Positions 7,020-34,870 of a stretch of DNA of 37,836 nucleotides are shown one piece after another. Made by a program: the position numbers and the translations under genes. The DNA is from a virus: positions 1 through 37,836 of IMG/VR virus record IMGVR_UViG_3300046369_000223; one strand, written 5' to 3'. Under the pieces are notes generated by a model. The model saw nothing but the letters and a program-made list of their open reading frames with translations. It searched no databases and was not told where the DNA came from. Positions within the stretch are counted from its first letter, which is position 1. Each line of letters starts with the position of its first letter.

Positions 7020-7523
7020 CTAGTCGGTTTTTCTAAGTTCTTTTAGTTGGTTGATGGTGTCTTCCGCACTAGTGTGTAGAATACCGATACCACCGTGTGC
7101 TTCCCATGCATCAAGGTTCTGTTTTCTGTCATCAATAAGGACACTTCCTTTGATTGCAAACATACCTTTCTGACTACCAGTCATAGTGCAAGTGACTACC
7201 ACTGTAGGACTCACATGTTCCTTAATCCATTCGTTCTTATCGAACACTACCAACTCTCTGTTGACGACACCAGCTGCAGTTAGGATTTCCCATGGCAATC
7301 CAGTGTGTCTTACATATCCTACCAAATCATACATATCTGGCATAGGTGGTAACATTCTGAACAATCTCTTGTTCGTTAACTCTTCCTTCCTTTCGTCATA
7401 ATCGTTATGACCTTGGTCGGTGTTAGGGAATTCTCTCCCTGTCAATGTTTCAACTCCAGTGTTGAAATCCGCTAGTACTCCATCCATGTCGATGAAGATT
7501 CTCTTTACTTTTCTATTTTCCAT
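7020..7523 (-). CDS. HAD-family 5'(3')-deoxyribonucleotidase-like phosphatase
   Basis: A 167-residue haloacid dehalogenase phosphatase. Motif I is FIDMDGVLADF (residues 10-20, nucleophile D12 and acid/base D14). LTAAG near residue 82 is motif II, and SVLIDDRKQNLDAW with the preceding lysine supplies motifs III/IV. This matches 5'-nucleotidase-type (NT5C-like) phage HAD proteins that dephosphorylate nucleotides, fitting a region rich in nucleotide metabolism. The start is fixed by its promoter: TATACT lies exactly six bases before ATG, so the transcript should begin at the start codon. A stem-loop follows the gene. Confidence 0.82.
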   Translation of the reverse strand: MENRKVKRIFIDMDGVLADFNTGVETLTGREFPNTDQGHNDYDERKEELTNKRLFRMLPPMPDMYDLVGYVRHTGLPWEILTAAGVVNRELVVFDKNEWIKEHVSPTVVVTCTMTGSQKGMFAIKGSVLIDDRKQNLDAWEAHGGIGILHTSAEDTINQLKELRKTD

Positions 7524-7529
7524 ACGTAT

Positions 7530-7559
7530 AGTATACTCGATTTATATGGCCATTGTCAA
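7530..7559 (-). promoter_or_regulatory. Consensus sigma70 promoter giving a leaderless mRNA
   Basis: On the minus strand TTGACA (7554-7559), an 18-base spacer, TATACT (7530-7535), then ATACGT and the ATG of the HAD nucleotidase gene. With the usual six bases between -10 and +1, transcription would start on the A of ATG. The -35 region is part of a 14-base repeat also present at 8134-8147. Confidence 0.8.
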
Positions 7560-7561
7560 GT

Positions 7562-7999
7562 CTATTTTAACCAAAACAGGTCATATATCATATCTTCTTT
7601 CTTGTATGCTTCACGTTCCCAAGGTTGACGGGAATAGGGTGTAAACTTGTATTTCTTACCTTTGTAGTTCACCAAAGATGGTGTTAAATCACCACGTAAG
7701 AACTGTTTAGCATGGACTAGTTCATGTGCAAGTGTCATCATCATCTGTGACATTGATTGCGGTTTTCCAGTCATTGGGTTGGTTTTACTGATTTCTATAT
7801 CAATGAAGTTTTTATCACCAAGACAATATCCTAGTGCATCGGGTATAGATTTAGTAAATGATATTTGGATTTCAACTTCACGTCTGAGACGTGGCATAAA
7901 GTAATGTATTGTGGAACGGACAAATTTAGAGATTCGTTTCTTCTCTGCAATTTGACCTTTAAAGGTCACGTCTATATTGTCAAACCATATCTTCGTCAT
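7562..7999 (-). CDS. HELVH zinc metalloprotease (SprT-like)
   Basis: A protein of about 145 residues with the zinc-protease motif HELVH in MTLAHELVHAKQFLRGD; a later glutamate in WEREAYKKE is a candidate third ligand. SprT-like and phage metallopeptidases of this size are common in T4-like marine phages, with unproven targets. The first ATG-like start (8023) would overlap the upstream gene by 44 bases. I prefer the in-frame ATG at 7997-7999 (GAAAGAATTG upstream), giving a 20-base overlap, but this is uncertain. The C terminus (YDLFWLK) ends just before the HAD gene's promoter. Confidence 0.75.
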   Translation of the reverse strand: MTKIWFDNIDVTFKGQIAEKKRISKFVRSTIHYFMPRLRREVEIQISFTKSIPDALGYCLGDKNFIDIEISKTNPMTGKPQSMSQMMMTLAHELVHAKQFLRGDLTPSLVNYKGKKYKFTPYSRQPWEREAYKKEDMIYDLFWLK

Positions 8000-8159
8000 C
8001 AATTCTTTCAACCTCATCTTCACTTATCTCGGAACCACAGAACACACAATGTGCTATAGTATAGTGGTTCTCATCCATATCATAAAAGCATTCGAATTCA
8101 CTCTTACAACTGTTACATGATACTAAAAAGTTGTGGCCATTGTCAAGGTTAATTGTCAT
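7980..8159 (-). CDS. Small zinc-ribbon protein
   Basis: A 59-residue protein with two CxxC knuckles: C15/C18 (VSCNSCKSEF) and C38/C41 (AHCVFCGSEI), a four-cysteine zinc ribbon, followed by a very acidic tail. The ATG at 8157-8159 has GGATGGAGACCAAATT upstream with a good GGAG site, so I prefer it to the longer frame starting at 8192. It overlaps the preceding gene by 11 bases and the metalloprotease gene by 20. Similar small ribbons in phages are thought to bind nucleic acids or transcription proteins. Its exact role is unknown. Confidence 0.75.
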   Translation of the reverse strand: MTINLDNGHNFLVSCNSCKSEFECFYDMDENHYTIAHCVFCGSEISEDEVERIDDEDMV

Positions 8160-8427
8160 AATTTGGTCTCCATCCTGTTTTATCTTTCTCACTTTTCACC
8201 ATAATTTTCTCATAAAGAGACTCAAATGACATCTTTTTGTCATTATAGACAGCATATGGTAGTTTGTGTTTCGCTTCATCTGTATGAAATTCGAGTCCAG
8301 CAGTGTACACACGTACAGTTTGATACTCCCTATCAATCATCCCAAAGAGGTGTTTCCACCTCTCACATATGACATCTTGGTCACTTGGTTTGGGTAGATA
8401 TAGGTAGTACTCGTTTGCTTGTCCCAT
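8149..8427 (-). CDS. Unknown small protein in the nrd cluster
   Basis: A 92-residue protein starting MGQANEYYLYLPKPSDQDV. The ATG at 8425-8427 overlaps the TAA stop of the glutaredoxin gene (TAATG), which decides this start over an in-frame upstream codon. No motif is recognised. The mix of aromatic and charged residues suggests a compact soluble domain. Its place in a string of overlapping genes from primase to metalloprotease suggests expression with the nucleotide-reduction genes. Confidence 0.65.
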   Translation of the reverse strand: MGQANEYYLYLPKPSDQDVICERWKHLFGMIDREYQTVRVYTAGLEFHTDEAKHKLPYAVYNDKKMSFESLYEKIMVKSEKDKTGWRPNYDN

Positions 8428-8666
8428 TAGTCTTCCCAAACGTCTCCGTGTTTTACATATTCTGCAAGTTGGTCATACCCACCTATTGCATCACCGTCCA
8501 CTCTGATTTGTGGGAATGTTCGTGCAGTTGGAAACTCTTCAAAGAGTTCTTCTCTAGTGAAATCAGTACCCAACTGTTTGTAAGTGTATTCTAGTCCTTT
8601 CTGTTCACATAAAGACTTTGCTTTATCACAGAATGGACACATTGTTTTTCCGAATATTTCAATCAT
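8427..8666 (-). CDS. Glutaredoxin
   Basis: A 79-residue glutaredoxin. The redox site is C11-P-F-C14 in FGKTMCPFCDKAKSL. The cis-proline loop is TFPQIRVDG, and the GGYDQLAEY segment is the glutathione-binding end. Length fits T4 NrdC-type glutaredoxins. It is the likely electron donor for the ribonucleotide reductase encoded just upstream. Its start overlaps the nrdB stop by four bases. Confidence 0.93.
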   Translation of the reverse strand: MIEIFGKTMCPFCDKAKSLCEQKGLEYTYKQLGTDFTREELFEEFPTARTFPQIRVDGDAIGGYDQLAEYVKHGDVWED

Positions 8667-10746: not shown

Positions 10747-13009
10747 CATCTCCCTCATAATTCGTTTGTTGCAATGGTTCGTCTGTGACAACGTCTTCAG
10801 TCTTACCATCCATAGTGTTTTGATAATAGGATGTCTTCCAACCATACTTGTATGTGGTTAGAAAATCCCTCGCCATTACTGATACAGGAACTTCATTGTT
10901 AGGGTAGTTCTCGGGGTTGTATGACCAGTTACCACTAATACCTTGGTCAAAGAATTTCTGCATCACTGCTACGATATTTATATATCCAGTGTTATCTGGC
11001 ATATCCCATAGTAATGTATAAGAATTCTTTAAGTGTGTATATTGTGGTACCACTTGTTTCAATGTACCCTTTTTACTCTTCTTAACACTCAGATAATCTC
11101 TAGGTGGTTCTACACCATTTGTTGCATTTGATACAACACTTGATGATTCACTTGGCATCTGTGCAGTTAGTGTAGAGTGTCTAAGACCATATTCTTTGAT
11201 GTCACCCCTCAATGTTTCCCAATCATGGTTTAACACATTTGGTGTCAATTCATCAACTTCCTTTTTGTAAGTGTCGATGGGTAGAATACCATCTGAATAC
11301 TTTGTCCCACCAAAACCTAAACAAGCACCTTTCTCTTTTGCAATAGTGTTGGATGCTTTGAGTAAATAGTATTGGAATGACTCTGTAAGTTCGTGTACTA
11401 ATTTAAGTGCATCGGGGTCGCCATACTTGACTTTGTTCTTCGCAAGGAAGTGTGCAAGTCCAATATAACCAATCCCCAATGACCTACGGGCGATAGTAGA
11501 TGCTCGAGCTGCTTCTACTGGATACTCTTGGTGGTCTATCAGTTCTTCAAGTCCTCTCACTGCGAGGTCACACAAGTTCTCCATTTCGTCCGATTTTACA
11601 ATTCCCACATTAATAGCACTCAGTATACACAATGCGATTTCACCCTTACCATCAATATGTTGGATTGGGTCTGTCGGTAGTGTAATCTCTTGACATAAGT
11701 TACTCATGTTAACTTTGTCTTTAAAACTACTATGTGTATTACAGTGGTCTATATTCATAATATAGATTCTACCAGTCTCTGCTCTTTCTTTTAACAAATC
11801 AGTAATTAGTTCCCTTGCACTCACCTTAATCTTATTGACGGATGTAGCACGTTCGTATTTCTCATAGAGTTCATCGAACTCGGGTGTTCCGAATGCTTCA
11901 TAGAGCCCAGGAGCTTCATGGGGTGAGAACAATGTGATGTCGTCATTCTTTAAAAATCTCTTATAGAATAACTCTGATAACTGAATAGAATAATCTAACT
12001 TTCTGACTCTGTTATCTTCTGTACCCTTGTTGTTCTTGAGTACAAGAATGTCTTGTATCTCTTGGTGCCAGATAGGGAAATGAACTGTTGCACTTCCTCC
12101 CCTTACTCCGTTTTGGGTGCAACATCTAACAGTTGATTCAAATTTTTTAAGGAATGGGATGACGCCCGTATGCTGGACTTCGCCTCCTCTAATCCTTGAA
12201 CCAATTCCTCTAATTCTTCCTGCGTTAATACCGATTCCGGCACGTTGAGCAACGTATTTTCCAATGGCCATATCACTTGAGAAGATACTGTCGAGAGTGT
12301 CGTCTGTGTCGACAAGCACACACGAAGCAAATTGTCGTAAAGGAGTTCTAACTCCTGCCATGATAGGGGTGGGGATGTTGATTTTGAATGTTGAGATTGC
12401 ATCGTAGTATTTTTTGACATAGTCTAACCTTTTGTCTTTATCATAGTTTTGGAACAGTGTCATGGATATTAACATATACATGAACTGTGGGGTTTCATAG
12501 ACCAAATTTGCTGACCTATCTTGTACCAAATACTTGTCTACTATTTGTTGTAGACCAGCATAGGTAAAGTCTGTATCTCTTCCATGTTTAATGAAAGAAT
12601 CAATCCTGTTGATTTCTTCGGTAGAATATGAGTTGATGATAGCATCATCATACACACCAAAGTCTATATTTCTATGTATGATTTCACCCAGTGGTGGATA
12701 TATCTCTGAATCTTTCCACTTGGTATTGAACACTTGTTTTTGAATTGCAAATAGTAGTAACCTAGCTGCAACAAATTGATAATTGGGATTCTCTAGTGTA
12801 ATTAAGTCACTTGCACTTTTCACTAGAATCTTTTGAATTTCTTTTGTGGTGATACCGTCAAAGAACTGGAGTCCACTATTCATTTCAACCAATGATTCTG
12901 ATACACCTGTAATACCTCTGCATGATTTTTCTACCATACGATGAATCTTGTCTAGGTTGATGTCCGATTTCGAACCATCTGATTTTAATACTTTTATCAT
13001 AGCATTCAT
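10718..13009 (-). CDS. nrdA: Class I ribonucleotide reductase, alpha subunit
   Basis: A 763-residue catalytic subunit reducing ribonucleoside diphosphates. Catalytic residues fall at almost the same numbers as in E. coli NrdA: C230 (ASCVLVD), N437/C439/E441 (NLCQEITLP) and C461 (LCILSAIN), with the C-terminal redox pair in DCEACAI. An N-terminal ATP-cone-like region (IKVLKSDGSKSDINLDKIHRMV) suggests allosteric activity control. It overlaps the primase stop (ATGA) and the following oxygenase start. No intein or intron is seen, although RNR genes are frequent targets for these. Confidence 0.97.
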   Translation of the reverse strand: MNAMIKVLKSDGSKSDINLDKIHRMVEKSCRGITGVSESLVEMNSGLQFFDGITTKEIQKILVKSASDLITLENPNYQFVAARLLLFAIQKQVFNTKWKDSEIYPPLGEIIHRNIDFGVYDDAIINSYSTEEINRIDSFIKHGRDTDFTYAGLQQIVDKYLVQDRSANLVYETPQFMYMLISMTLFQNYDKDKRLDYVKKYYDAISTFKINIPTPIMAGVRTPLRQFASCVLVDTDDTLDSIFSSDMAIGKYVAQRAGIGINAGRIRGIGSRIRGGEVQHTGVIPFLKKFESTVRCCTQNGVRGGSATVHFPIWHQEIQDILVLKNNKGTEDNRVRKLDYSIQLSELFYKRFLKNDDITLFSPHEAPGLYEAFGTPEFDELYEKYERATSVNKIKVSARELITDLLKERAETGRIYIMNIDHCNTHSSFKDKVNMSNLCQEITLPTDPIQHIDGKGEIALCILSAINVGIVKSDEMENLCDLAVRGLEELIDHQEYPVEAARASTIARRSLGIGYIGLAHFLAKNKVKYGDPDALKLVHELTESFQYYLLKASNTIAKEKGACLGFGGTKYSDGILPIDTYKKEVDELTPNVLNHDWETLRGDIKEYGLRHSTLTAQMPSESSSVVSNATNGVEPPRDYLSVKKSKKGTLKQVVPQYTHLKNSYTLLWDMPDNTGYINIVAVMQKFFDQGISGNWSYNPENYPNNEVPVSVMARDFLTTYKYGWKTSYYQNTMDGKTEDVVTDEPLQQTNYEGDDEDCEACAI

Positions 13010-14049
13010 ATTCTCTTGTACTCCTTTAGTTTCAGTTTTGCAGTGAGACCTTCGGTTGTACAGTTATCTATAATTGACACAATGTCTTCGCTTGTCATTC
13101 CACTCATTATCATATTGTTTATATCTTTCAATCCTTCTACTCTCTTATCATTCCAAATACACACACGGTAACCTTCATCGATTACCTCATCAATTTTCTT
13201 TAGAATTTCTTTGTTTCGTGGTTCATTGTCATAAATTATTATTGCGTTGTCTTTTATAGCATTGTCGATTTTTTTAAAGTCACTACCACCGACAGCAATA
13301 CTGTTTGGTAGGAATAAACTGTCTAGTGGCCCTTCTGTAACATAGATAGTTTTAGTCATATTCACTTTATCAATATTGAAGATGAGTGAATCGTCATCTC
13401 GGAATCTCATTGTTAGATATCTCAACGGTGAGTCATCGATTGCTCTCCCACTAACACCAACAAGTTCCCCATTCTTGATGAATGGCAATACAATTCTAGG
13501 ATTATTTCCTAGAGGTCGTGTTTTATATTTATCTGACAAGAACGATAGACTTTGTGCAGATTCAACAAACCACAACTCTTTTTGTGACTCTACTGGAATT
13601 TTTCTGTTGTCTAGGTACTTCCTTGCGACTTTACTTTCAATCGCTGGTTTCGCTATAAACTTCAAGTTCTCAATGGTCATTTTTGTTGCATCTGTATTTA
13701 GACTTTCAGTAGTCTTGGGTTTAAACTTGAATGCATTCGATGATGGCATTCTTTGATTGACATTCTTCTTACCATGTTTCTCTTGTAGAAGTTCTTTAAC
13801 ATACTCCTTGTATTGTACAGGAAAATGGTCTTTCAAAAATGTCATTGATGATGTGGATTTACCACAGTTATGACACTTATATATGAATGATTGGTCGACT
13901 AAAAAATGATATGCTCGTGCTTTGTAGCGATTCTTTTGGGAATCACCACAATAAAGACATCTGTGATTTAATGTACTGTCTCCCTTCCATTTACAAACCT
14001 CAAGATGAGGTGTAACTGTAGAGAGGTACTTTCGCTCTAACCATAACAT
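13006..14049 (-). CDS. 61: DNA primase (T4 gp61-like)
   Basis: A 347-residue DnaG-type primase, close to T4 gp61 in length. The N-terminal zinc-binding domain has CLYCGDSQKNR and KCHNCGKSTSS (two CxxC pairs, residues ~32-63). The Toprim core follows, with IYVTEGPLDSLF (acidic motif) and IIIYDNEPRNKE (D-x-E type motif). It makes RNA primers for lagging-strand synthesis with the gp41 helicase encoded at 27.9-29.3 kb. Its ATG lies exactly six bases after TATACT and inside a long inverted repeat, suggesting a leaderless and operator-controlled transcript. It heads the primase-nrdA-oxygenase-nrdB-glutaredoxin string. Confidence 0.92.
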   Translation of the reverse strand: MLWLERKYLSTVTPHLEVCKWKGDSTLNHRCLYCGDSQKNRYKARAYHFLVDQSFIYKCHNCGKSTSSMTFLKDHFPVQYKEYVKELLQEKHGKKNVNQRMPSSNAFKFKPKTTESLNTDATKMTIENLKFIAKPAIESKVARKYLDNRKIPVESQKELWFVESAQSLSFLSDKYKTRPLGNNPRIVLPFIKNGELVGVSGRAIDDSPLRYLTMRFRDDDSLIFNIDKVNMTKTIYVTEGPLDSLFLPNSIAVGGSDFKKIDNAIKDNAIIIYDNEPRNKEILKKIDEVIDEGYRVCIWNDKRVEGLKDINNMIMSGMTSEDIVSIIDNCTTEGLTAKLKLKEYKRI

Positions 14050-14079
14050 ACACTCAGTATATCACTGAATGTATGTTAT
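14043..14079. promoter_or_regulatory. 16-bp inverted repeat over the primase promoter and start codon
   Basis: ATAACATACACTCAGT (14043-14058) and ACTGAATGTATGTTAT (14064-14079) pair over 16 bases with one C:A mismatch, which becomes a G:U pair in minus-strand RNA, around a 5-base centre. The repeat runs from the edge of the -35 box through the -10 box to beyond the ATG of the primase gene. There is no T-run, so an operator or a start-codon hairpin is more likely than a terminator. Confidence 0.65.
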
Positions 14080-14084
14080 TTCAA
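14056..14084 (-). promoter_or_regulatory. Sigma70-type promoter of the primase/nrd operon
   Basis: On the minus strand TTGAAA (14079-14084), a 17-base spacer and TATACT (14056-14061), then GAGTGT and ATG of the primase gene. The predicted +1 is the A of ATG, with no room for a ribosome binding site. Confidence 0.8.
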
Positions 14085-14098: not shown

Positions 14099-14305
14099 TT
14101 ATCCGGCGTCTATTAGTGCTTGAATTTCAGCGATTTGAGCAGCGTTTGTTGTGACTGAACCATCGTATGCGACCTTTTTTGGGTCGTCTGATTCTAAGTC
14201 TGCATAACCTTCGGGTTGAACAGGCACTCCATCTCCTGTCTCAAACCATGCTTTCCTTTCTGCTAGGTTGTCAATCGTTGGGATTGGCGATAATGGTTCT
14301 GGCAT
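14099..14305 (-). CDS. Small late protein, paralogue of the 14347-14598 product
   Basis: A 68-residue acidic protein. ERKAWFETGDGVPVQPEGY aligns with ERLEFYKGDGKPVAPEGF of the neighbouring protein, and both continue with a similar spaced region ending in an AQIAEI/RQIASL coiled segment. The pair looks like a tandem duplication. TTAGGAGATTAAC precedes the ATG, and an ACTAAATA late-promoter octamer lies at 14334-14341. Unlike the leaderless genes here it has a normal leader, fitting strong late expression. The function is unknown; the 'GDG.PV.PEG' stretch resembles a motif in phage structural or tail-associated proteins, but I cannot confirm that. Confidence 0.7.
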   Translation of the reverse strand: MPEPLSPIPTIDNLAERKAWFETGDGVPVQPEGYADLESDDPKKVAYDGSVTTNAAQIAEIQALIDAG

Positions 14306-15490: not shown

Positions 15491-16258
15491 TTATACCTGT
15501 GAGTTTCTTTTGATTAAGTCAAAGAGTTGGGCAGGTTCGTATTTCTTTTTCTTCTTTACCACTGGTACATCTGTTGCAACTGCAGTACCTGTAGCATTCA
15601 AGGGCGCATCTTCTAATATATCATATTTAAAATACTTCATACATGCATCCGCTAGTTGGTATCCTGCTATCTTATCACTAGGATAGTGGATACCAGCATG
15701 GACTCTACCCAGTGCAGAGATTTCTGCCATTGCCAACAATTCAGATTTATGTTGGGGATAGATTGATGAGTAGTAGTTTGCAACTACTCTCGCCTGTAAA
15801 GCATGGTTTGAAGGATATGATGGGGATTGTGCAGTATCTGTATTGAAATAGTCCATTTCCATACCTAGTTTCTCTGCAAGTACATAAGGTCTCGGTCTCA
15901 TGTATTTATTCTTGAATTGTCTACCAATGTGTCTTGCACTATCTGTGATTTTTTCTATATCATCATCTGTATATGCTAAATCATTGTTCGACATGTATTC
16001 TTTGATGTAGTATGAAGTGTCTTCATCTGTGTTTAGATAACGTTTCTTCTGTTCATCTGTAAGTTTCTGAATCATACCAACCATCTGTTTGAGTTCTTTG
16101 ATGGTTTGTGGACTAGAATTGGCAGTATTCGGATTTAAAGATAACTCCTCCAAAACTTTAGTGTCGAACAATTCACCCAATTCTTCTATCTTGGGTTTCT
16201 TAGTCTTCCCTGTATGTTTTAGACTGTCTACGTTTACTACTGCCTCAATAAACGTCAT
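15491..16258 (-). CDS. PAP2-family phosphatase
   Basis: A 255-residue protein with all three PAP2 signatures: K..(6)RP in KNKYMRPRPYV, PSNHA in SPSYPSNHALQA (PSGH-type, catalytic His), and R..(5)H...D in GRVHAGIHYPSD. These make a histidine-phosphate intermediate as in class A acid phosphatases and lipid phosphatases. No signal peptide or membrane helix is evident, so it is probably cytoplasmic or released. The substrate is unknown (a nucleotide, sugar phosphate or lipid phosphate). It overlaps the upstream gene by 14 bases. Confidence 0.85.
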   Translation of the reverse strand: MTFIEAVVNVDSLKHTGKTKKPKIEELGELFDTKVLEELSLNPNTANSSPQTIKELKQMVGMIQKLTDEQKKRYLNTDEDTSYYIKEYMSNNDLAYTDDDIEKITDSARHIGRQFKNKYMRPRPYVLAEKLGMEMDYFNTDTAQSPSYPSNHALQARVVANYYSSIYPQHKSELLAMAEISALGRVHAGIHYPSDKIAGYQLADACMKYFKYDILEDAPLNATGTAVATDVPVVKKKKKYEPAQLFDLIKRNSQV

Positions 16259-16805
16259 CTTCTGTTACCAATATTCGTTCTACTCCACATTGTGCGATAT
16301 AGATGTTAACACCAAACACTATTGAGTGTTCTGCGATAACTGTTATAGGGGTCTTTTGTGGATAGGTTACACCGTTTTGTTCTTCTAGGTTTCTTCTAAG
16401 GTGGTAGTGTCTACCAACGTCAAGTGTCATAACTTGATTCGCTTCATGAAGGTCGTCTACATCAAATTCACCTGTATCTTTGATGTGTCTGTAAACCTTC
16501 TCACACAATTCTTCTGCTTGTTCTGCAGTGATACCTGTCTCTTCTTTCAGTAATGCGATTGCAACAGCGTATGATGCAAATCTAGATTTACCAAAAGGTA
16601 CCTTTTCTATGATTCGTTTTAAGTTGAAGACAAGTTTGTGTAGCATGGAATAAGCACTCTTCTCTTCGGATGTTTTCGGTTCTTTTTCAGTTCGTTTACC
16701 CTTGTTGGTAATCAAACCAAGTTTATATGCATCCGTGTCCACCCATTTCTGAGTTAACATTTTAATGATTCTAAAAACTATAAGTGTGTTTATTAAGTTC
16801 GCCAT
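16245..16805 (-). CDS. Conserved T4-like marine phage protein
   Basis: A 186-residue mostly helical protein starting MANLINTLIVFRIIKMLTQKWVDTDAYKLGLI, with a basic central region (KLVFNLKRIIEKVPFGKSRFASYAVAIALLKEE). I recall similar proteins in cyanophage-type T4-like genomes without a firm function. The ATG lies exactly five bases after a CATAAATA late promoter (16811-16818), so the late mRNA should start at the start codon; no ribosome site is visible. tRNA-Thr lies 25 bases upstream. Confidence 0.75.
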   Translation of the reverse strand: MANLINTLIVFRIIKMLTQKWVDTDAYKLGLITNKGKRTEKEPKTSEEKSAYSMLHKLVFNLKRIIEKVPFGKSRFASYAVAIALLKEETGITAEQAEELCEKVYRHIKDTGEFDVDDLHEANQVMTLDVGRHYHLRRNLEEQNGVTYPQKTPITVIAEHSIVFGVNIYIAQCGVERILVTEDDVY

Positions 16806-16810
16806 ACTTC

Positions 16811-16818
16811 TATTTATG
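16811..16818 (-). promoter_or_regulatory. Late promoter CATAAATA, leaderless spacing
   Basis: The minus-strand octamer CATAAATA is followed by GAAGT and ATG. T4 late transcripts start about six bases after the octamer, which here is the A of ATG. It sits in the 25-base gap between tRNA-Thr and its downstream gene. Confidence 0.7.
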
Positions 16819-16830
16819 TATTCAAAATAG

Positions 16831-16906
16831 TGGAGCTCCCAAACCGATTCGAACGGTTGACCTACTGATTACAAATCAGTTGCTCTACCAACTGAGCTAT
16901 GGGAGC
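16831..16906 (-). tRNA. tRNA-Thr (anticodon UGU)
   Basis: Cloverleaf with acceptor GCTCCCA/TGGGAGC, D stem GCTC/GAGC, anticodon stem ACTGA/TCAGT with loop TTTGTAA (anticodon TGT), T stem AACCG/CGGTT with loop TTCGAAT, and encoded CCA at 16831-16833. The discriminator base is T. It starts two bases after the stop codon of the upstream gene. Confidence 0.95.
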
Positions 16907-16908: not shown

Positions 16909-17280
16909 TTATAAATCTCGTAACCTCTGTACAAGTGCATCGTCAAGAGGCATCTCGGGTGACCACGACTCATCAATGTACCCCAAGTAGAGTAACATTG
17001 TCTTAACAGATATCCAATATTTCTCATCCTTCAATTTAAACTCCAACATTTTCATTGATGCATCAAATCCAAATACATTGAATATGGTAATGATATGGTT
17101 TAACATAAGACGTTCTCTCATCTCACCATTTTCATGGTATCTGTGTAAGAGACGTTTAAGGTAACGGAATCTACGCAAATCTTCCTCAAAGTCTTCTATG
17201 GTCTCACATTGTGGGTCGTCATAGTGTTTTTGAGCGAATGCAGTAAAATTTTTGTTTGTAAGGGTATCAAAGAGTTTCAT
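16909..17280 (-). CDS. Conserved T4-like phage protein (DUF7207-like)
   Basis: A 123-residue protein starting MKLFDTLTNKNFTAFAQKHYDDPQC. The first codons, the EDFEEDLRRFRYLKRLLHRY segment and the LNHIITIFNVFG segment match a family I know from T4-like marine phages (DUF7207-like), function unknown. I start at the ATG at 17278-17280 rather than a TTG three codons earlier because TATAAT lies eight bases upstream of it. The gene follows a clear terminator and is followed two bases later by tRNA-Thr, so it heads a unit ending in the tRNA and the 16805 gene. Confidence 0.78.
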   Translation of the reverse strand: MKLFDTLTNKNFTAFAQKHYDDPQCETIEDFEEDLRRFRYLKRLLHRYHENGEMRERLMLNHIITIFNVFGFDASMKMLEFKLKDEKYWISVKTMLLYLGYIDESWSPEMPLDDALVQRLRDL

Positions 17281-21412: not shown

Positions 21413-21990
21413 TATTGTTTTAATTCTCCATTTTCGAAGTAGTCGAACATTTTCTCTTTACCTTCTTCATCCAAACGTAAAGATTTTGCCAATCTACCTA
21501 ACATATTTCTTTCTACGAGTTTTTCTACAGTTTTTTCTACTGAAAGATTCTCTTCTTGTACTGTTTCTTTGATACCTGCATCTTTAAACATTTTCATTAG
21601 TTTACTATTGGTAGGTAGTGTAATCTTTTTCTCTTTACCTAATTGAGAAACTAACTTTTCAAATCCTTTTGGATTTTGTTTCTGCATTTGTTGTACAACT
21701 TTAACACCAGTCATACTTAGCATCTTTGCAACACCGTATTGTGAATCCTTATCTCCTTTAAGATTGAACAATTGGTCAATCATTGCACCAGCGGATGCTT
21801 CTAGGAGAATTTCTTCTTCAATTGTTTCGGTGGTCTCATCCTCTTGGAAAAACTTTTTAAGTTCTTCCTCAATCTCGTTATTGATTACTGTATCATTATC
21901 AAGAACTTCTTCCACTACTACAGCAGGTTCTCGACCAAAGTTACGGACTTCGTCTAGTTTGTCTTTCCAGTTGTCTTTGTTATAACTCAT
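21412..21990 (-). CDS. Late protein, unknown, near-leaderless
   Basis: A 192-residue protein with an acidic N-terminal region (VVVEEVLDNDTVINNEIEEELKKFF) and then ILLEASAGAMIDQLFN, an L-x-E/A site followed by a helical domain (GVAKMLSMTGVKVVQQMQKQN). The end is helical (AKSLRLDEEGKEKMFDYF). The first 65 residues may be a cleavable or disordered segment. The ATG lies eight bases after a TATAAATA late promoter (21999-22006), with no ribosome site. Not recognised. Confidence 0.65.
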   Translation of the reverse strand: MSYNKDNWKDKLDEVRNFGREPAVVVEEVLDNDTVINNEIEEELKKFFQEDETTETIEEEILLEASAGAMIDQLFNLKGDKDSQYGVAKMLSMTGVKVVQQMQKQNPKGFEKLVSQLGKEKKITLPTNSKLMKMFKDAGIKETVQEENLSVEKTVEKLVERNMLGRLAKSLRLDEEGKEKMFDYFENGELKQ

Positions 21991-21998: not shown

Positions 21999-22006
21999 TA
22001 TTTATA
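21999..22006 (-). promoter_or_regulatory. T4-type late promoter TATAAATA
   Basis: A perfect TATAAATA on the minus strand, eight bases before the ATG at 21988-21990. It overlaps the end of the upstream cupin-like gene. The predicted transcript has a leader of two bases or so. Confidence 0.75.
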
Positions 22007-23219: not shown

Positions 23220-24341
23220 TTAACCACCTGCTTTCTTAGCAAGGTCTTTATCAGCACCACCCCAAGTTCCTTTACCTTTTGTGATAAAAGAATTAACACG
23301 AGCATGTCCCCACTGTTCTGGCGTTGTGCCTGGTCTGTGACCAGTTTTCCAAGCGGCGACTCCTCTGTTATAAACTTGTTGTAGAATACCCTTAGCGATT
23401 CCTGACTTGTCTGCTTTCTTTGCAAGGGATTTACCAGCATCTTCACCAAACATCTTTTGGAATTTCTTGGTGTGTTTTGATGGTTTTGTTTCTGCACTTG
23501 AATCGCCTGGCGCTGGGCCATCTTTCTTCTGTGCAAAATGAGCGGCACGTTTTTGTTTGGTGGATTTGGACATCTCATCACCATCAGCATCCTTTGCATA
23601 ATACTTAGATGGTTGTGTACCTTTACGGTCTTTGATATCTTTGTCCTGTTTAACTTCCTGTACATCACCAAACTTAAGAAATAATCTATTTTTCTGTTGT
23701 TTCTTATCAGTCACTTTATGATTTACAAATGCCCCTACGGTATTAATCATACCAAGACCTTTTTCGGGGTTCCTTTTGTATTCTGTCTCTAGTTTATCTT
23801 TAAGTTTTTTGAAGATGACGTTAATAATATCACCAATATCTGAGACATATTTACCTTCTTCTACAGAGTCTTCTTCTCTAAGTCTTGGTTCTTTTCTGTT
23901 ATAATTTTGAGAAACGATACTAAGATTAGACTTATCGTTGTTCATAGGATTATTGTCCTTATGGTGAACGTCCTTTCCTTTTATATCTTTTCTGTCCTTT
24001 AGACTTCTTCGTGCTTCATTTCTTTTTGCACGTCTTTTAATTTGGTCGGGTTTTGAGTGATAATTTGCATACTCTTTTTTGTAATCCCGCTCTTCGTTCG
24101 CCTTTCTATCAGCGTCTCGTTTTGCCTTGATTTGGTCATCTTTTACTTCTTTCTCATCTTGACCTTTCTGTCTCTCACTCTCTCTTTCGTGTCTATCAGT
24201 AAGTGCTTCTAATTCGGTCTCGTGTTTTGTTTTAAGACGTTCCAATTCTTCTGCTTGTTTTGCTTTTAGTTCCGCTGCTGCGACTGCATCCTCTTTTAAG
24301 GATGTAAATTGATGAAGTAATGTTTCTAATCTTTTAGTCAT
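23220..24341 (-). CDS. HNH-like protein with coiled coil and C-terminal phage module
   Basis: A 373-residue basic protein. Residues 1-85 are a highly charged coiled coil (LERLKTKHETELEALTDRHE). Residues ~122-150 (DVHHKDNNPMNNDKSNLSIV) match the HNH-nuclease core (HH, N, N..NL). The C-terminal ~70 residues (GIAKGILQQVYNRGVAAWKT, PGTTPEQWGHARVNSF, GTWGGADKDLAKKAGG) are a module I recall from T4-like marine phages (DUF5824-like). The gene has a late promoter (TATAAATA) with the ATG exactly five bases downstream. A late, coiled-coil-linked HNH protein is odd for a homing enzyme and might be a packaged nuclease. Confidence 0.7.
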   Translation of the reverse strand: MTKRLETLLHQFTSLKEDAVAAAELKAKQAEELERLKTKHETELEALTDRHERESERQKGQDEKEVKDDQIKAKRDADRKANEERDYKKEYANYHSKPDQIKRRAKRNEARRSLKDRKDIKGKDVHHKDNNPMNNDKSNLSIVSQNYNRKEPRLREEDSVEEGKYVSDIGDIINVIFKKLKDKLETEYKRNPEKGLGMINTVGAFVNHKVTDKKQQKNRLFLKFGDVQEVKQDKDIKDRKGTQPSKYYAKDADGDEMSKSTKQKRAAHFAQKKDGPAPGDSSAETKPSKHTKKFQKMFGEDAGKSLAKKADKSGIAKGILQQVYNRGVAAWKTGHRPGTTPEQWGHARVNSFITKGKGTWGGADKDLAKKAGG

Positions 24342-24346: not shown

Positions 24347-24354
24347 TATTTATA
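24347..24354 (-). promoter_or_regulatory. Perfect late promoter TATAAATA, leaderless spacing
   Basis: TATAAATA on the minus strand, then GTATT, then ATG at 24339-24341. The predicted transcription start is the A of ATG. The octamer overlaps the last codons of the upstream nucleotidyltransferase-kinase gene. Confidence 0.8.
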
Positions 24355-25768: not shown

Positions 25769-25950
25769 GACATCTTCTCTCTTTCTTTATCTACTAAGTC
25801 ATTCATGATTTCCATATTTTGGTCACCAGTTTTACTACCGTCATACTCATATGCTTTTTCGGGGTCACCTACAACCCAATCATCGTCTTTGAATTCTATA
25901 TCAGTTTGAGCTGGATACTTAGGTAATGCAAACTCTCTGAATGATTTCAT
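25765..25950 (-). CDS. Small acidic protein, unknown
   Basis: A 61-residue acidic protein starting MKSFREFALPKYPAQTD. The ATG at 25948-25950 overlaps the TAA stop of the upstream gene (TAATG), so I prefer it to a GTG four codons earlier. The first residues resemble the capsid-targeting pattern but no L/I-x-E site is present. It overlaps the nucleotidyltransferase-kinase start by four bases and may act with it. Function unknown. Confidence 0.65.
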   Translation of the reverse strand: MKSFREFALPKYPAQTDIEFKDDDWVVGDPEKAYEYDGSKTGDQNMEIMNDLVDKEREKMS

Positions 25951-27149
25951 TACTTGTCCCACGCTTTCATTGCAGTGAAGTTATTGTATGCAAACTCCAT
26001 TCTGTCAACAAGTTTTACTGCACTTCCAGTTCTATCAATTGCAACATAACCCTCGGGGTTGACCGCCTCGAACCCCTTATCGGTTCTTTTGAATGTTCCT
26101 ATACTCTTTACTCTATTTAGTGCAACAATTATGATTTGTTTTGCAATGACCAAGTGTTCCATGAATTTAGTCAAGTTTGTTATGAATTTATTTAGTGACC
26201 GTAACTCAGCGTAGAGTTGTTCACCAATTTCTCGTTTGATTTGTTTTGTCTTTTCCATCTTCACTTTACCAACTACCATATCTCTCCAGTAGTTTTCGAA
26301 GTGTTTCATATATCCGTTGTATGTTGGTTTGTATGAACCCGCCCTAATTTGTGCGTTACAATATGTTTTGTATGATGCACCTACACCTTTTTTTGCAATA
26401 GTATCTTGTATCTGTTTAAACTTCTGCAAATCTTTCCTAGTGATACCGTGGAATGCTTTACCCACTGCAGTCAACTCCCTAGTTAATGCAAGTGTTTCTT
26501 TTGCAGTCATACTACTGTTACCACTCACATCCTTATATGTTGCATCATCCATCCACACATCACTACTACTTCCACTTGGTAGTTTTGCACCAAAGGAGGC
26601 AGATAATCCGTCAATTGTAGAACCAGTGTAAGTAGTGTGAAACACTATACCCATTTTAGAACTGGCAATCTCTTTACCAAGTTTTGATTCTACATCTACT
26701 GCATACATGATTGTGTTTGGTTGGAATGTGATGAATGTTTTACCATCCATATTTGTCATCTTCTTATCGTTAGTGTACATCAAGTCACCCTGTAAGATAT
26801 CAGTAAAGGATAGTTTAGATAAGCACTGAAATGATGTCAAGAACTTTTCCTTCAGATTAGAAGATAGTTCTTTAGCGTCTTTAATTTCTTGTTCTGAAGT
26901 ATAAAAGAGAGGTTCTTTATTGAATAGTGATTTCTTTGCGACAAAGAATCTGCCGTCTTCGGGATGTTTCCCAACAAAGATTGCTGGAGCACCATCCCAT
27001 TTCACAGTCATGTTCACTCTAGAATTTTGGTTACCTTTCATCATGTCTCTAAGACCTTGAAGAAAATTAATCGCACCACGACCACCATCAATACCTTGAT
27101 TGATGATTTCGTCTTCTAAGTGTTCTAAATGTAAGTTTTTCGCTGCCAT
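25950..27149 (-). CDS. DUF6267-like protein, possible nucleic-acid ligase fold
   Basis: A 399-residue protein I match from memory to a conserved family of T4-like marine phages (DUF6267-like). MTVKWDGAPAIFVG at about residues 47-60 carries K50-W-D-G53, the shape of the nucleotidyltransferase K-x-D/N-G motif of RNA/DNA ligases. ILQGDLMYTND near 118 and TFITFQPNTIMYAV near 138 could be later ligase motifs (E/D-G, strand, K-x-K equivalents are less clear). FFVAKKSLFNKEP follows. Function is unproven. It has a late promoter and a leader hairpin (27150-27191) that encloses its ribosome site. Confidence 0.72.
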   Translation of the reverse strand: MAAKNLHLEHLEDEIINQGIDGGRGAINFLQGLRDMMKGNQNSRVNMTVKWDGAPAIFVGKHPEDGRFFVAKKSLFNKEPLFYTSEQEIKDAKELSSNLKEKFLTSFQCLSKLSFTDILQGDLMYTNDKKMTNMDGKTFITFQPNTIMYAVDVESKLGKEIASSKMGIVFHTTYTGSTIDGLSASFGAKLPSGSSSDVWMDDATYKDVSGNSSMTAKETLALTRELTAVGKAFHGITRKDLQKFKQIQDTIAKKGVGASYKTYCNAQIRAGSYKPTYNGYMKHFENYWRDMVVGKVKMEKTKQIKREIGEQLYAELRSLNKFITNLTKFMEHLVIAKQIIIVALNRVKSIGTFKRTDKGFEAVNPEGYVAIDRTGSAVKLVDRMEFAYNNFTAMKAWDK

Positions 27150-27191
27150 AATAGTAGATTATACACCTTTAATGTGTGTTCGTCTACTATT
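27150..27191 (-). promoter_or_regulatory. Leader hairpin next to the start codon
   Basis: AATAGTAGA (27150-27158) and TCTACTATT (27183-27191) are perfect 9-base arms. An inner ACAC/GTGT pair brings the AAAGGTG ribosome site into a loop. In the minus-strand transcript the structure ends at the base before ATG. Part of one arm is the CCTAAATA late promoter (27188-27195), so a transcript starting there would lack most of that arm, while read-through RNA would fold it. Confidence 0.5.
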
Positions 27192-27195
27192 TAGG
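27188..27195 (-). promoter_or_regulatory. Late promoter CCTAAATA
   Basis: CCTAAATA on the minus strand, 38 bases upstream of the ATG at 27147-27149. It gives a leader of about 30 bases with AAAGGTG as the ribosome site. Confidence 0.6.
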
Positions 27196-27662: not shown

Positions 27663-27836
27663 TTAAATCTTAGCAAGGGGTTTTGATTTTAGTTTTTCAT
27701 CTAAATCATTTTTCTTTTTAGTCAACTTCTTTATCTCAGATGGGGGTAACTCACCCGATTTTCTGAGTTGTTTTTTAATCTCAATCCGCTTTTGTAACGT
27801 TGTGATTACTTCATTGGGGTCTAAGGACTTATTCAT
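27663..27836 (-). CDS. 57-residue basic protein, unknown
   Basis: A 57-codon frame in the gap between the helicase gene and the late structural gene. ATG is at 27834-27836 and TAA at 27663-27665. It starts MNKSLDPNEVITTLQKRIEI and continues as a lysine-rich, largely helical protein with a PPSE turn between two helices, the shape of a small helical hairpin. CATAAATA lies ten bases upstream (27847-27854); no ribosome site is visible. The frame fills nearly all of the intergenic gap. Not recognised; possibly nucleic-acid binding from its charge. Confidence 0.6.
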   Translation of the reverse strand: MNKSLDPNEVITTLQKRIEIKKQLRKSGELPPSEIKKLTKKKNDLDEKLKSKPLAKI

Positions 27837-27854: not shown

Positions 27855-27857
27855 CAT

Positions 27858-30249: not shown

Positions 30250-30278
30250 AATTTATACACCTCTCATAATGTATAACC

Positions 30279-30307
30279 ATTATAGAACGGAAGTGAGTTT
30301 AGGTCAA
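30279..30307 (-). promoter_or_regulatory. Sigma70-type promoter of uvsX
   Basis: TTGACC (30302-30307), a 17-base spacer and TATAAT (30279-30284) on the minus strand, followed by a 29-base leader containing GAGAGGTG before the uvsX ATG. The leader also holds a four-codon frame (ATG AGA GGT GTA TAA) that overlaps the ribosome site, a possible minor leader peptide. Confidence 0.82.
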
Positions 30308-30495
30308 GTGGTTTTTTTTGAGTTTTTGGAATTCTTTTTTTCGAGTTCGCATTGCATGGCTTTTCTTTCATCGAACTTGATGTGTTCTTCCATCATGACT
30401 TTGATTGCTTTGATTTGTGCCTCAATCATATACAGAGCGCCGACTATTCCACTAATTGCGACTATGTATATTATGTCCATAAGTGATATTGTCAT
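30304..30495 (-). CDS. Small single-helix membrane protein
   Basis: A 63-residue protein with one N-terminal hydrophobic helix (ISLMDIIYIVAISGIVGALYMIEA) and a charged, lysine-rich cytoplasmic-looking tail (FDERKAMQCELEKKNSKNSKK). The start overlaps the nuclease stop by four bases. No family is recognised. Small membrane proteins beside phage nucleases sometimes take part in exclusion or envelope change, but nothing here shows that. Its end overlaps the uvsX promoter's -35. Confidence 0.62.
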   Translation of the reverse strand: MTISLMDIIYIVAISGIVGALYMIEAQIKAIKVMMEEHIKFDERKAMQCELEKKNSKNSKKTT

Positions 30496-30905
30496 AATTC
30501 AACAGTGCCGTTCTCCAATAAAACCTTTCGATTATTGAGATGCATCTCTTCTATTAGGTCTTTATTATCCCCTGTATATGGAACTGCATGGTGGTCGTTA
30601 ATCATTCTTTGATTTACAGATACTGTTTCGCCATCAACAAATAATTCCCCAAGGATTCTTCCAAACTTACCTTTGTCGTGTGACACTAAGGTAATTTGTT
30701 TTGCATCTAATATACTCTTCAGATGTGCCTTTGCAGCTTTTCCGAATTTTTTTTCTACCAAATCTCTTGTGCGGCTCTCGGGTGTGTCGATGCCCATCAT
30801 ACGGACTCTTTGTTTTTTGAGAACCGTACTGAACCCTAAATCGATGTCCACGTCTACCGTATCTCCGTCCACCACTTTAGAAATTTTTACATTATATTGA
30901 TACAT
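30492..30905 (-). CDS. Staphylococcal nuclease-like (TNase/SNase) protein
   Basis: A 137-residue nuclease with the SNase fold. KVVDGDTVDVDIDLG is the first strand pair with metal-binding aspartates. RVRMMGIDTPES carries the equivalents of catalytic R35 and E43, and KFGRILGELFVDG the equivalent of R87. I start at the ATG at 30903-30905 because CATAAATA ends exactly five bases before it; the ATG two codons upstream overlaps the promoter. No signal peptide is evident, so it probably acts inside the cell, for example on host DNA or RNA. Confidence 0.9.
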   Translation of the reverse strand: MYQYNVKISKVVDGDTVDVDIDLGFSTVLKKQRVRMMGIDTPESRTRDLVEKKFGKAAKAHLKSILDAKQITLVSHDKGKFGRILGELFVDGETVSVNQRMINDHHAVPYTGDNKDLIEEMHLNNRKVLLENGTVEL

Positions 30906-30910
30906 GTTCA

Positions 30911-30918
30911 TATTTATG
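30911..30918 (-). promoter_or_regulatory. Late promoter CATAAATA, leaderless spacing
   Basis: CATAAATA on the minus strand, then TGAAC, then ATG at 30903-30905. It overlaps the end of the upstream glycosyltransferase gene. The same five-base spacing occurs at 16811 and 24347. Confidence 0.65.
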
Positions 30919-31657: not shown

Positions 31658-32331
31658 AACACCTTATAATCTACTGGCACGAAATTTTTAACATTAATAC
31701 TTCTACCACTCTGTACAGTTGTAAATGTCTCCTCTACATCAAATGGGAATGGATAATACTCTTTCAACAATCCTTCTCCCATCATAGAAGGTGTCATCAT
31801 CATATCTGCTGGATGCAACCACCTAAATTCGGGGTTTCTCATTCTATCTAGTATTTGTTTTGCACCTGTAGGACTCATCATGATTGCATGGTTACCAAGG
31901 AATGGTCTGTTTGTATCTGTCATGACGTTCAGTCCATCTTCCCACTCTATACTGTCTCCCAATTCTTTGTTCCAAGATGGTTTACCAAGACTGATAACCC
32001 CATCCACTTCTATATCAGGCAAGGGTGTAATCATTCTTGCATCGTGTTCTAGTATTAGAAAATCATCATCGACTTCAACACACGAATTCCACAATCTCAT
32101 TTGAGATGCAAGACATGATAACACTCTTTCGGGTCTTGGTTCCATTTGTAAAATATTTGTGCTTATCTTTCTTCCAAGTATTCTTTCAATAATTTCATGT
32201 GGGTCATCGTCTGGCGTTGTAGCAGGAAAGAGTTGTGCAGTGACACCATGCAATGCACATGTGTTTGCACACGTAATAGCAGACTCCACACTCTCGTACA
32301 AGTCCATTATTGTTATGATATGGGTTCTCAT
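31654..32331 (-). CDS. GT25-like glycosyltransferase (first of a pair)
   Basis: A 225-residue protein: IITIMDLYESVESAITCANT (N-terminal nucleotide-fold strand), SCLASQMRLWNSCVEVDDDF, then LILEHDARMITPLP (acidic EHD site), then LGNHAIMMSPTGAKQIL. The order and spacing equal those of the next gene, so the two arose by tandem duplication. It overlaps the polymerase stop by four bases and is therefore transcribed with gene 43. The EHD instead of EDD variant is shared by both copies. Confidence 0.8.
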   Translation of the reverse strand: MRTHIITIMDLYESVESAITCANTCALHGVTAQLFPATTPDDDPHEIIERILGRKISTNILQMEPRPERVLSCLASQMRLWNSCVEVDDDFLILEHDARMITPLPDIEVDGVISLGKPSWNKELGDSIEWEDGLNVMTDTNRPFLGNHAIMMSPTGAKQILDRMRNPEFRWLHPADMMMTPSMMGEGLLKEYYPFPFDVEETFTTVQSGRSINVKNFVPVDYKVL

Positions 32332-34835
32332 GAAAAGAAACTATCCAAAGATGCAACAGGTTCTGTATGCCATCCGATACGTTCTGCAATATTTCTTAGA
32401 GGTTCTAAGAATGATTTGTTGAACTGCATGTCATAGTCTATGAATCTGTGTAAGTCAAACTCTTTTGGAAGTGTACCAACATAAGATATCACATTCTCAT
32501 TGAACACATTTGGTAGTGTAAGATATGAGAAAAGAATCTTGTCACCTTCCTTGATTGTCTCGTAGCGTCTATCTAAATTCTTGTTCTTTAGGTGGTGATT
32601 GAATAGTAAAGCACCACGGACATGTATTGGTGTTCCCTTAGTGTAGATGGTGTTCATGTTACTATATTGACCAAGGTTGTTACAACCTCTAGGGAATGAT
32701 ACTTTCTCGGGTGGTAACTCTCTGAATTCTTTACGTGCAGTTTCTACGTAATCCCATAATTGTTCCTCATCACCTTGCATGACAATCTTAATCGCCTCTT
32801 CAAGACGTGTTCTTACCCATTGTGGTGTACTGGACTTTGCAGTCTCAATACCCATGAGTTTAAGTTTAGGTTTGGCAAACCTCACACCTTCCATGTCATG
32901 TACGTTAAGTATGTAGCGTTTCTTAGCAGTCCATATACCTCTGTCTGCAATCGCCTCACGTCCCATCTCCATCTTCTGTTGGAATGCATTCGTGTATTTT
33001 GCAAAGTCAATGAATCCTTTTTCTAGGATATTCTCTAGTTGAACTTCCGCTTTACATAAAAAATCAACAACCTCTTCTTTAGATGCATCGGGTAGTACTT
33101 GTTGTACCAATGCATCCATTGTGATATAGACTGAGTCTGTATCCATTGCGATAACATAATCTTTTTTAGTCTTTAAGACTTCGTTTAGATAATCATTGAT
33201 GGTTTTCTCTGCCCACTTGATGACCAACTGACCCGACATAGTAATCGCCTCTGCGAGGTCGATAGAAAAGAATGCAAAATATTGATTAGCAAGAGCACCA
33301 TAAGCAGAGTTGAGTGCAATCTTTCTGACCTGTTGATTGTTGTATGCATGTTTGATTTTTGTTTCTAATTCTTTACGTTGTGCATTATCAGAAACAGTTT
33401 CAAGTTCTTTCTGATACCCAATCATCTTCTTCTTCCATGCCTTACGTTCATCATAGAACTTTTCCATAAGTTCGGGAAGGAATCCTTGTTTGTCTCTCTT
33501 AAACATTACTCCGTTTGGCGTAACAGTGTGTCCCAATCTATACACTTCATTTAGGTTACACTCTTTGTTTAACATTTTATCTACGTTGACATCCTGTCTC
33601 ATACCATTCACCATCTTTTCGGGTGAGATGTTAAACTGCATAATCAAGTGAGGATATAGTGAATTTAAATCAAAAGACATGACCCAATTGTGACCACCAA
33701 CCTGTGGTTCTTTTACATATGCACCAGCGATCGGCTTGATTTTGTCACCATTTCTTCTCAATTGTTGTGGTGGTGTTTGTATCTTCTGTTCTTTTAAGAA
33801 GTTGTATATGATTGTTTCCCAATACTTAACCATACCAAATACATCTGCATAATTACACTTAGCATTGTATGCCATCGTCTCTGTAAGTTCGATGAATCCA
33901 AGTTTGTCATCCAGTTCTTCAACGAGAAGAACGTCCATCACATTATACTCCAAGAACTTTGGATAGTCCTGTTTGTATAGTGTATGTAATGACCCATGTT
34001 CTGAATAGTCTAGTTTCTTCTTACCTAGTTCTACCTCAGCAATGTGGTCTAGTTTGTATGATGCTTGATTGACGAATGTGTGTTTACGATATAGTTCGAG
34101 ATAGTCAAGAACATTAACACCATAGAGTGTAAAAATCATTTGTTTTTGATAACCCATGGTGGTGAACTCTCTCACATCACTCATACCCCATGGAGATAAC
34201 TTCTTGTGTTCTCCTTCGCCGAAGAGTCTATCAACTCTGTTGCAAATGTATGTAATATCGAATGAGTTTACATTCCAACCTGTGATGATATCAAAGTTTT
34301 CCGTTCTCCAATACTTCATGAACTCAGTCATGAGATGTGCTTCATCTCTACAAGGATAATACACATAATCTTTACCGTGATTCCAGTCACCTATTCCGAA
34401 TACATGTGCTGGTTTACCAATCGGTTTGATTGTAATTGCGTTTATCTTTTCTTGGGCATATCTTGGGTCGGGGAATCCATCTTCACACTCACACTCAATA
34501 TCAAGTACCGCTGCTTTGATGTTCTTTGAATCGAACTCTATGTCTCCATGGAATTTCTCTGCGATATATGTATAGATATATCTGTCATATCCATGGATTT
34601 CAAATCCAGCAGTCCCATCATATTTCTCACGGAACTTTCTTGCACCACCCATTGAGTTGAGTTCTACAACTTCAAGTGGTCTGTCATCTAGTGAACGAAA
34701 CGGTGTCTCGCCTTTCTTAGATGGAATGTAGTGTTTGGGTCTGTAGTCAATCTTGTGCTTGACTTGTTTGTTACCTTGATATCCTCGAACGAGAATCTTG
34801 TCACGTGTACGACATACGTTTGTATAATAATCCAT
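32328..34835 (-). CDS. 43: DNA polymerase, family B (T4 gp43-like)
   Basis: An 835-residue replicative polymerase with proofreading. Exonuclease motifs: D112-I-E114 (LDIECECE, the same positions as in T4 gp43), NVNSFDITYI, and YNVMDVLLVEE. Polymerase motifs: A DLNSLYPHLIM, B KIALNSAYGALAN and C YVIAMDTDSVYI. The last residues (ASLDSFFS) resemble the clamp-binding tail of T4-type polymerases. A promoter with TATAAT exactly six bases before ATG suggests a leaderless mRNA. T4 controls gene 43 through an RNA operator bound by gp43 in the 5' leader; here there is no leader to hold one. Confidence 0.97.
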   Translation of the reverse strand: MDYYTNVCRTRDKILVRGYQGNKQVKHKIDYRPKHYIPSKKGETPFRSLDDRPLEVVELNSMGGARKFREKYDGTAGFEIHGYDRYIYTYIAEKFHGDIEFDSKNIKAAVLDIECECEDGFPDPRYAQEKINAITIKPIGKPAHVFGIGDWNHGKDYVYYPCRDEAHLMTEFMKYWRTENFDIITGWNVNSFDITYICNRVDRLFGEGEHKKLSPWGMSDVREFTTMGYQKQMIFTLYGVNVLDYLELYRKHTFVNQASYKLDHIAEVELGKKKLDYSEHGSLHTLYKQDYPKFLEYNVMDVLLVEELDDKLGFIELTETMAYNAKCNYADVFGMVKYWETIIYNFLKEQKIQTPPQQLRRNGDKIKPIAGAYVKEPQVGGHNWVMSFDLNSLYPHLIMQFNISPEKMVNGMRQDVNVDKMLNKECNLNEVYRLGHTVTPNGVMFKRDKQGFLPELMEKFYDERKAWKKKMIGYQKELETVSDNAQRKELETKIKHAYNNQQVRKIALNSAYGALANQYFAFFSIDLAEAITMSGQLVIKWAEKTINDYLNEVLKTKKDYVIAMDTDSVYITMDALVQQVLPDASKEEVVDFLCKAEVQLENILEKGFIDFAKYTNAFQQKMEMGREAIADRGIWTAKKRYILNVHDMEGVRFAKPKLKLMGIETAKSSTPQWVRTRLEEAIKIVMQGDEEQLWDYVETARKEFRELPPEKVSFPRGCNNLGQYSNMNTIYTKGTPIHVRGALLFNHHLKNKNLDRRYETIKEGDKILFSYLTLPNVFNENVISYVGTLPKEFDLHRFIDYDMQFNKSFLEPLRNIAERIGWHTEPVASLDSFFS

Positions 34836-34841
34836 ATGGTT

Positions 34842-34870
34842 ATTATAACAGAAAGGTGTCTATTCTACAA
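34842..34870 (-). promoter_or_regulatory. Sigma70-type promoter of gene 43, leaderless spacing
   Basis: TTGTAG (34865-34870), 17 bases, TATAAT (34842-34847), then AACCAT and ATG on the minus strand. The -35 overlaps the stop codon of the upstream gene. The expected +1 is the A of the polymerase ATG. Confidence 0.75.

Follow-up and report, generated by a model that had tools for sequence, protein, structure and literature searches.

Leaderless initiation is usually held to be rare in lytic phages, and phage T4 is the textbook case of translation that is led by Shine-Dalgarno (SD) sites and regulated through RNA. Individual leaderless phage messages are known, examples being lambda cI, transcribed from PRM, and messages of certain Thermus phages. 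Bacterial leaderless genes, also called TA-led genes, have their -10 box some 10 bp ahead of the start codon and lack an SD site (Zheng et al. 2011, PMC3160421). In T4, the upstream-started RNAs of e, soc, 49 and I-TevI hide the translation start in a hairpin, and a late promoter inside it releases an SD-led start (PMC3014915, PMC2988022). Here we analyze a viral DNA of 37,836 bases, the entire IMG/VR record IMGVR_UViG_3300046369_000223 (GC 38%; hereafter the window), in which promoters of two classes, sigma70-type and T4 late-type, stand at fixed short distances from start codons. Comparison with related phages indicates that a large part of the early, replication and late genes of this clade are very probably transcribed as leaderless mRNAs.

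The arrangement shares with bacterial TA-led genes the -10 distance, the lack of SD sites, the AUG start and the coexistence with SD-led genes. It differs in that it occurs in a lytic T4-like phage, includes a second, gp55-type late class at offset 5, and is conserved gene by gene. Lambda cI and the Thermus phage messages likewise begin at AUG, whereas the present scheme would take in many essential genes of replication and structure and two promoter classes. The late octamer is that of the T4 late promoters (TATAAATA; gp55, gp33, gp45); in T4 it is 14-32 nt away from the start codon, whereas roughly 35-45% of the late-linked starts considered here lie at 5-8 nt. As in the T4 e/I-TevI switch, a hairpin in upstream-started RNA would hide the start, and the promoter's own RNA would be without the 5' arm. 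The T4 cases are late genes with SD sites and late promoters, whereas the primase and polymerase promoters described here are sigma70-type, SD sites are lacking, and the AUG is the predicted 5' end. A literature search of limited scope found no account of leaderless mRNAs in T4-like phages, which is not proof of absence.

The window probably represents part of the genome of a marine T4-like phage. The DNA polymerase that it encodes shares 47-49% identity with cyanophage gp43, and its nrd region shows ~69% DNA identity to Pelagibacter phage HTVC008M. Near-identical contigs were found in IMG/VR, one of them (L008) being the 120.7-kb genome G001. Relatives comprised ~400 loci from six IMG/VR scans; G001 and a second large relative, G005 (145.9 kb), were used for genome-wide counts, and five cultured phages, T4, Syn9, HTVC008M and Melnitz among them, were scanned too.

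An original prediction, made from the window, had placed the -10 box six bases before ATG at three genes, each with a -35 box at 17-18 bases. Both the gap and the spacers proved exact, on the minus strand, with the A of ATG at 7523, 14049 and 34835:

7020..7523, minus strand: HAD 5'(3')-deoxyribonucleotidase (NT5C-like; Pfam NT5C, phrog_2643), predicted leaderless
7530..7559, minus strand: HAD promoter, -35 TTGACA at 7554-7559, spacer 18 nt, -10 TATACT at 7530-7535, predicted +1 at 7523
13006..14049, minus strand: T4 gp61-like DNA primase (phrog_47), predicted leaderless
14056..14084, minus strand: primase promoter, -35 TTGAAA at 14079-14084, spacer 17 nt, -10 TATACT at 14056-14061, predicted +1 at 14049
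32328..34835, minus strand: T4 gp43-like DNA polymerase (Pfam DNA_pol_B), predicted leaderless
34842..34870, minus strand: DNA polymerase promoter, -35 TTGTAG at 34865-34870, spacer 17 nt, -10 TATAAT at 34842-34847, predicted +1 at 34835

Three further genes had been assigned a late octamer ending five bases before ATG. This spacing is also exact and on the minus strand. The genes named at 16803, 24339 and 30903 were the right ones; each of these coordinates marks the other end of the start codon, and the A itself lies at 16805, 24341 and 30905:

16245..16805, minus strand: late gene, phrog_18642-like, predicted leaderless
16811..16818, minus strand: late octamer CATAAATA, 5 nt before the ATG at 16805
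23220..24341, minus strand: DUF5824 / HNH-like protein, predicted leaderless
24347..24354, minus strand: late octamer TATAAATA, 5 nt before the ATG at 24341
30492..30905, minus strand: SNase-like nuclease (Pfam SNase), predicted leaderless here
30911..30918, minus strand: late octamer CATAAATA, 5 nt before the ATG at 30905

For the nuclease, 30905 is the better start, as had been chosen originally, because the in-frame upstream ATG at 30911 overlaps the octamer. The late spacing is significant from the window alone: YATAAATA-N5-ATG occurs 3 times against 0.11 expected, a count reached in 0 of 100 shuffles. TATAMT-N6-ATG occurs 5 times against 1.5 expected, and 3 of 100 shuffles reach 5. Because this motif alone is only mildly enriched, it is the -35 boxes and the relatives that carry the sigma70 case.

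Those relatives hold the spacing gene by gene. The -10 box of the DNA polymerase gene ends 6 nt before ATG in 45/45 scored promoters (nearly all from proteins of at least 72% identity), while the six-base gap itself varies freely in sequence (AACCAT, TACAGT, AACTAC, TATATT and others); the -35 box, TTGTAG in the window, is a perfect TTGACA in most relatives. The gap is 6 in 32 of the 35 scored HAD relatives and 5-8 in 85 of 102 primase relatives, which include proteins of just 35-40% identity. Among late genes, 50 of the 64 members of the 16805 family have TAAATA-N5-ATG, and 57 have any TAAATA. In the family of the gene at 21990 the gap is 8 in 18/27 and 5-7 in the remainder. Other leaders are found in many SNase relatives that lack the octamer.

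SD sites follow the opposite pattern. With the upstream region of every gene in the window listed, none was found at the six predicted leaderless starts, and AGGAG-type sites appeared at 14305, 14598, 27627, the gene starting at 1916 and others. The AGGAG or GAGG sites that had been put forward as leadered contrasts, at 14305, 14598, 27627 and uvsX (30249), are thus in place. Among relatives, an SD site is present in 0/49 polymerase genes, 5% of primase genes and 0/27 members of the 21990 family, and in all members of the leadered families uvsX, g14305, g14598 and g18343. In the same phages uvsX shows 11 distinct gaps, from 16 to 31, with an SD site in 42/42. The alignment of related phages therefore reverses the pattern that had been named as refuting leaderless starts, conserved SD sites with variable spacing: spacing is conserved and ribosome sites are rare. 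Leaderless spacing without SD sites beside SD-led genes with spread gaps supports, at the level of sequence, the two-mode translation scheme that had been proposed.

We pooled the distances from promoter to open reading frame start, counting distinct sites over all loci. Sigma70-type promoters gave 9 sites at a gap of 5, 128 at 6, 37 at 7 and 16 at 8, and late octamers gave 0 at 4, 131 at 5 and 13 at 6. Both peaks persist when counted by protein family (~19 rough clusters for sigma70, ~22 for late). Start codons at the sigma70 gap of 6 are ATG in 114 cases, GTG in 1 and TTG in 4; at the late gap of 5 they are ATG in 120, GTG in 3 and TTG in 2, which gives 234 ATG against 10 GTG/TTG for the two offsets together. 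The base at -1 is a pyrimidine in 112/128 sigma70 sites and 130/131 late sites, compared with 58% in leadered families. The ATG bias and the -1 pyrimidine are the marks that would be expected of transcription starting with a purine at a 5'-terminal AUG. In textbook terms the sigma70 -10 box occupies -12 to -7 and the T4 late octamer -13 to -6. The late TATA box precedes the transcription start by about one turn (PMC2988020). A gap of 6 for sigma70 and of 5 for the late class is therefore each polymerase's own requirement and would put +1 on the A of ATG.

The extent of the scheme can be gauged in the two large relatives. Leaderless or near-leaderless spacing is found at 13/28 late-linked and 6/15 sigma70-linked starts of G001, and at 12/33 and 14/27, respectively, of G005; only 1 of the 13 late near-starts of G001 has an SD site. 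The genes at leaderless spacing include those for portal, DNA end protector, a baseplate wedge protein, a UvsY-like protein, HAD and primase, and the scheme is thus broader than had been proposed. Homologues of gp55 and gp33 are encoded in both G001 and G005 (the window is a fragment), and the G005 gene for the gp55 homologue, the late sigma factor (L428:18082), is itself at leaderless spacing, with an SD-like 4-mer also upstream.

The cultured phages delimit the arrangement. Late octamers lie 14-32 nt before ATG in T4 and 15-39 nt in Syn9, with none shorter and no gap-5 peak in either. Late gaps below 10 occurred among the five only in HTVC008M (5, 5, 8, 8) and in the OM43 phage Melnitz (5, 5), beside longer ones. 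These two are thus cultured relatives in which octamers can stand 5 or 8 nt from ATG, although such starts are fewer. The primase -10 gap of Melnitz is 7, whereas the -10 boxes of the HTVC008M primase and polymerase genes (L093, L095), with an extended -10 TGATATAAT, leave gaps of 11 and 12 nt to ATG, an intermediate short-leader state. Sinorhizobium phage phiM7 was rejected as a cultured model, as its polymerase and primase genes are without the arrangement.

Given these features, we infer the positions of the RNA 5' ends and leaderless translation as follows. The host sigma70 RNA polymerase would start early and replication genes on the A of ATG through the 6-nt -10 gap, and the gp55-type late polymerase would start late genes on the same base through the 5-nt octamer gap. 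The resulting mRNAs, lacking SD sites, would be read by recognition of the 5'-terminal AUG, while uvsX and other genes of the same phages would keep SD-led leaders, so that two translation modes would coexist.

At the primase gene, and at the polymerase gene in many relatives, we identified an additional element, a -10 box within a covarying repeat that would hide the AUG in read-through RNA:

14043..14079, minus strand: primase inverted repeat around the -10 box, with the AUG at 14047-14049 in the 3' arm

In the window, primase RNA reading through from upstream is calculated to fold into a hairpin of 17 uninterrupted base pairs closed by a 3-nt loop (-21 kcal/mol, z -6.93, no shuffle as stable). 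The arms covary in relatives through compensatory pairs, with mispairs almost nil. In the primases of register -24, for example, pair -17:-7 is A-T in 6, C-G in 2 and T-A in 1, and pair -22:-2 is C-G in 6 plus three other pair types, without mispairs at either. Pairing fell when 3' arms were swapped between relatives (primase z 8.9, polymerase z 5.7; both values are inflated by relatedness). The mean fold z of non-redundant sequences is -2.33 for primase (n=32) and -2.07 for polymerase (n=13), against -0.66 to +0.93 for 18 other gene families.

A related hairpin lies at a third gene, where -10 gaps of 6-8 are found in 27/30 scored relatives:

25950..27149, minus strand: DUF6267 protein, predicted near-leaderless from a sigma70-type promoter
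27158..27163, minus strand: -10 TATAAT of the DUF6267 gene, 8 nt before the ATG at 27149
27151..27190, minus strand: DUF6267 hairpin of longer RNAs (z -2.37), its 3' end 1 nt before the AUG

A late-type CCTAAATA at 27188-27195 on the same strand overlaps the 5' arm of this hairpin and ends 38 nt upstream of the ATG. RNAs from either the sigma70-type or the late-type promoter would both miss the outer 5' arm. As a general mark of leaderless starts the hairpin was rejected, being confined to primase and polymerase and partial at DUF6267; nor is it a general primase feature, as distant primases do not show it.

We hypothesized that the repeat ties translation to the place where transcription began. 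Read-through RNA from upstream genes would fold the repeat, burying or abutting the AUG, and we infer that it would be silent; RNA from the gene's own promoter would start at the AUG, lack the 5' arm, be unable to form the hairpin and be translated. Translation of primase, of polymerase in many relatives and partly of DUF6267 would thus be gated by the transcription start. The full form of this proposal, that only RNA with the A of AUG as its first base is translatable, and that primase (and polymerase in many relatives) depends wholly on its own promoter for expression, as part of a leaderless programme shared by the clade, we regard as evenly balanced.

Alternatively, and with a lower though appreciable probability, the primase repeat might act on DNA, as a cruciform or by easing melting of the -10 box, which would replace the RNA lock and leave the leaderless starts untouched. 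The -10 box does lie inside the repeat in most primase and polymerase relatives. In several primases, however, the 5' arm pairs with codons 1-4 instead (registers -10 and -11; CCATAG with CTATGG), and the AUG stays paired while the repeat center shifts downstream, away from the -10 box, which favors a role at the RNA level over a DNA operator. RNA locks also have precedents in T4.

Several observations weigh against a start-site-gated switch and the leaderless programme around it. The polymerase hairpin of the window is weak (z -0.8), though it is strong in relatives, and there is no hairpin at HAD (window fold z +0.2) or at the late genes. Distant primases show no significant hairpin (mean z -0.40), and pairing of the AUG is only modestly above that of shuffled upstream regions (2.41 versus 1.83 of 3 nt). 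Leaders, or loss of the arrangement, are seen in some HAD and SNase relatives. Finally, gaps vary slightly in some families (6, 7 and 8 for primase, mostly 8 for g21990), and leaders of 1-3 nt or a flexible start site therefore have to be allowed for.

This last point bears on an unlikely alternative, that the promoters are real and +1 lies a few bases off the A, giving very short leaders and SD-independent internal initiation. Start-site choice can move by 1-3 nt, which would accommodate the variable families, and the gaps of 11 and 12 in HTVC008M fit as well. Against it stand peaks at exactly 6 and 5 for two polymerases, with the count of sites falling to 9 and 0 at one base closer, a pyrimidine at -1 in nearly every case and an almost exclusive use of ATG. 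We give still less credence to a fixed spacing kept by an operator or structure over the -10 box, such as an RNA site for autoregulation comparable to the T4 gp43 operator. The strong repeats at primase and polymerase do conserve pairing and not sequence, and in T4 a hairpin-like repeat is visible by inspection just upstream of gene 43; yet HAD and the late genes hold the same gaps without a hairpin, and RNA started at the AUG would lack the site. A shared operator was rejected, since the arms differ among promoters of one phage and HAD has no repeat. Chance or AT-richness, with ATG often following TATAAT-like or TATAAATA-like strings, would suit the mild sigma70 motif enrichment in the window and is virtually ruled out by the shuffles, by one-base peaks in ~40 families and by the T4 and Syn9 controls, T4 lacking such peaks in the same scan.

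If leaderless expression is true, a widespread marine T4-like clade would rely on leaderless mRNAs as a principal route of expression for essential genes, from two promoter classes. Start-codon and promoter evolution would be coupled, and SD-dependent gene finders may place starts wrongly. The hairpin would be an added means of tying translation to the starting point of transcription. The cultured relatives HTVC008M and Melnitz render the scheme testable.

Four more starts had been described as having promoters within a few bases. The motifs are present at all four, and the wording was loose: the gap is 5 at 192, 8 at 17280 and 21990, and 10 at 27836. Two of them are:

181..186, plus strand: -10 TATACT, 5 nt before the ATG at 192 (DUF7220-like protein)
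21999..22006, minus strand: late octamer TATAAATA, 8 nt before the ATG at 21990, leader ~3 nt

An extra TATACT-N6-ATG with a TTGACG -35-like box lies at 3893-3907 on the minus strand, within the gene at 3629-4375. Initiation at its in-frame ATG would yield a C-terminal product of 89 aa, and the motif also occurs in G001 (L422:686). In one HAD relative (L133), the codon after the 6-nt gap is ATA, and a short ATG reading frame (MENEQ-stop) lies just before the present start, which looks like a leaderless start decaying into a leadered one.

A tRNA-Thr gene, within 16811-16906 on the minus strand, lies directly upstream of the late gene at 16805. As a guide to the host, a 41-nt probe from this tRNA had no match, and a 29-nt probe matched many unrelated phyla, so that no host was assigned. 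Ribosomal protein bS21 was looked for in the window and not found. It is encoded in 7/11 large relatives (L410-L416), G001 included, and in HTVC008M and Melnitz; a link between phage bS21 and altered initiation is possible. At the 16805 gene, tRNA-like 3' ends occupy the same place in many relatives.

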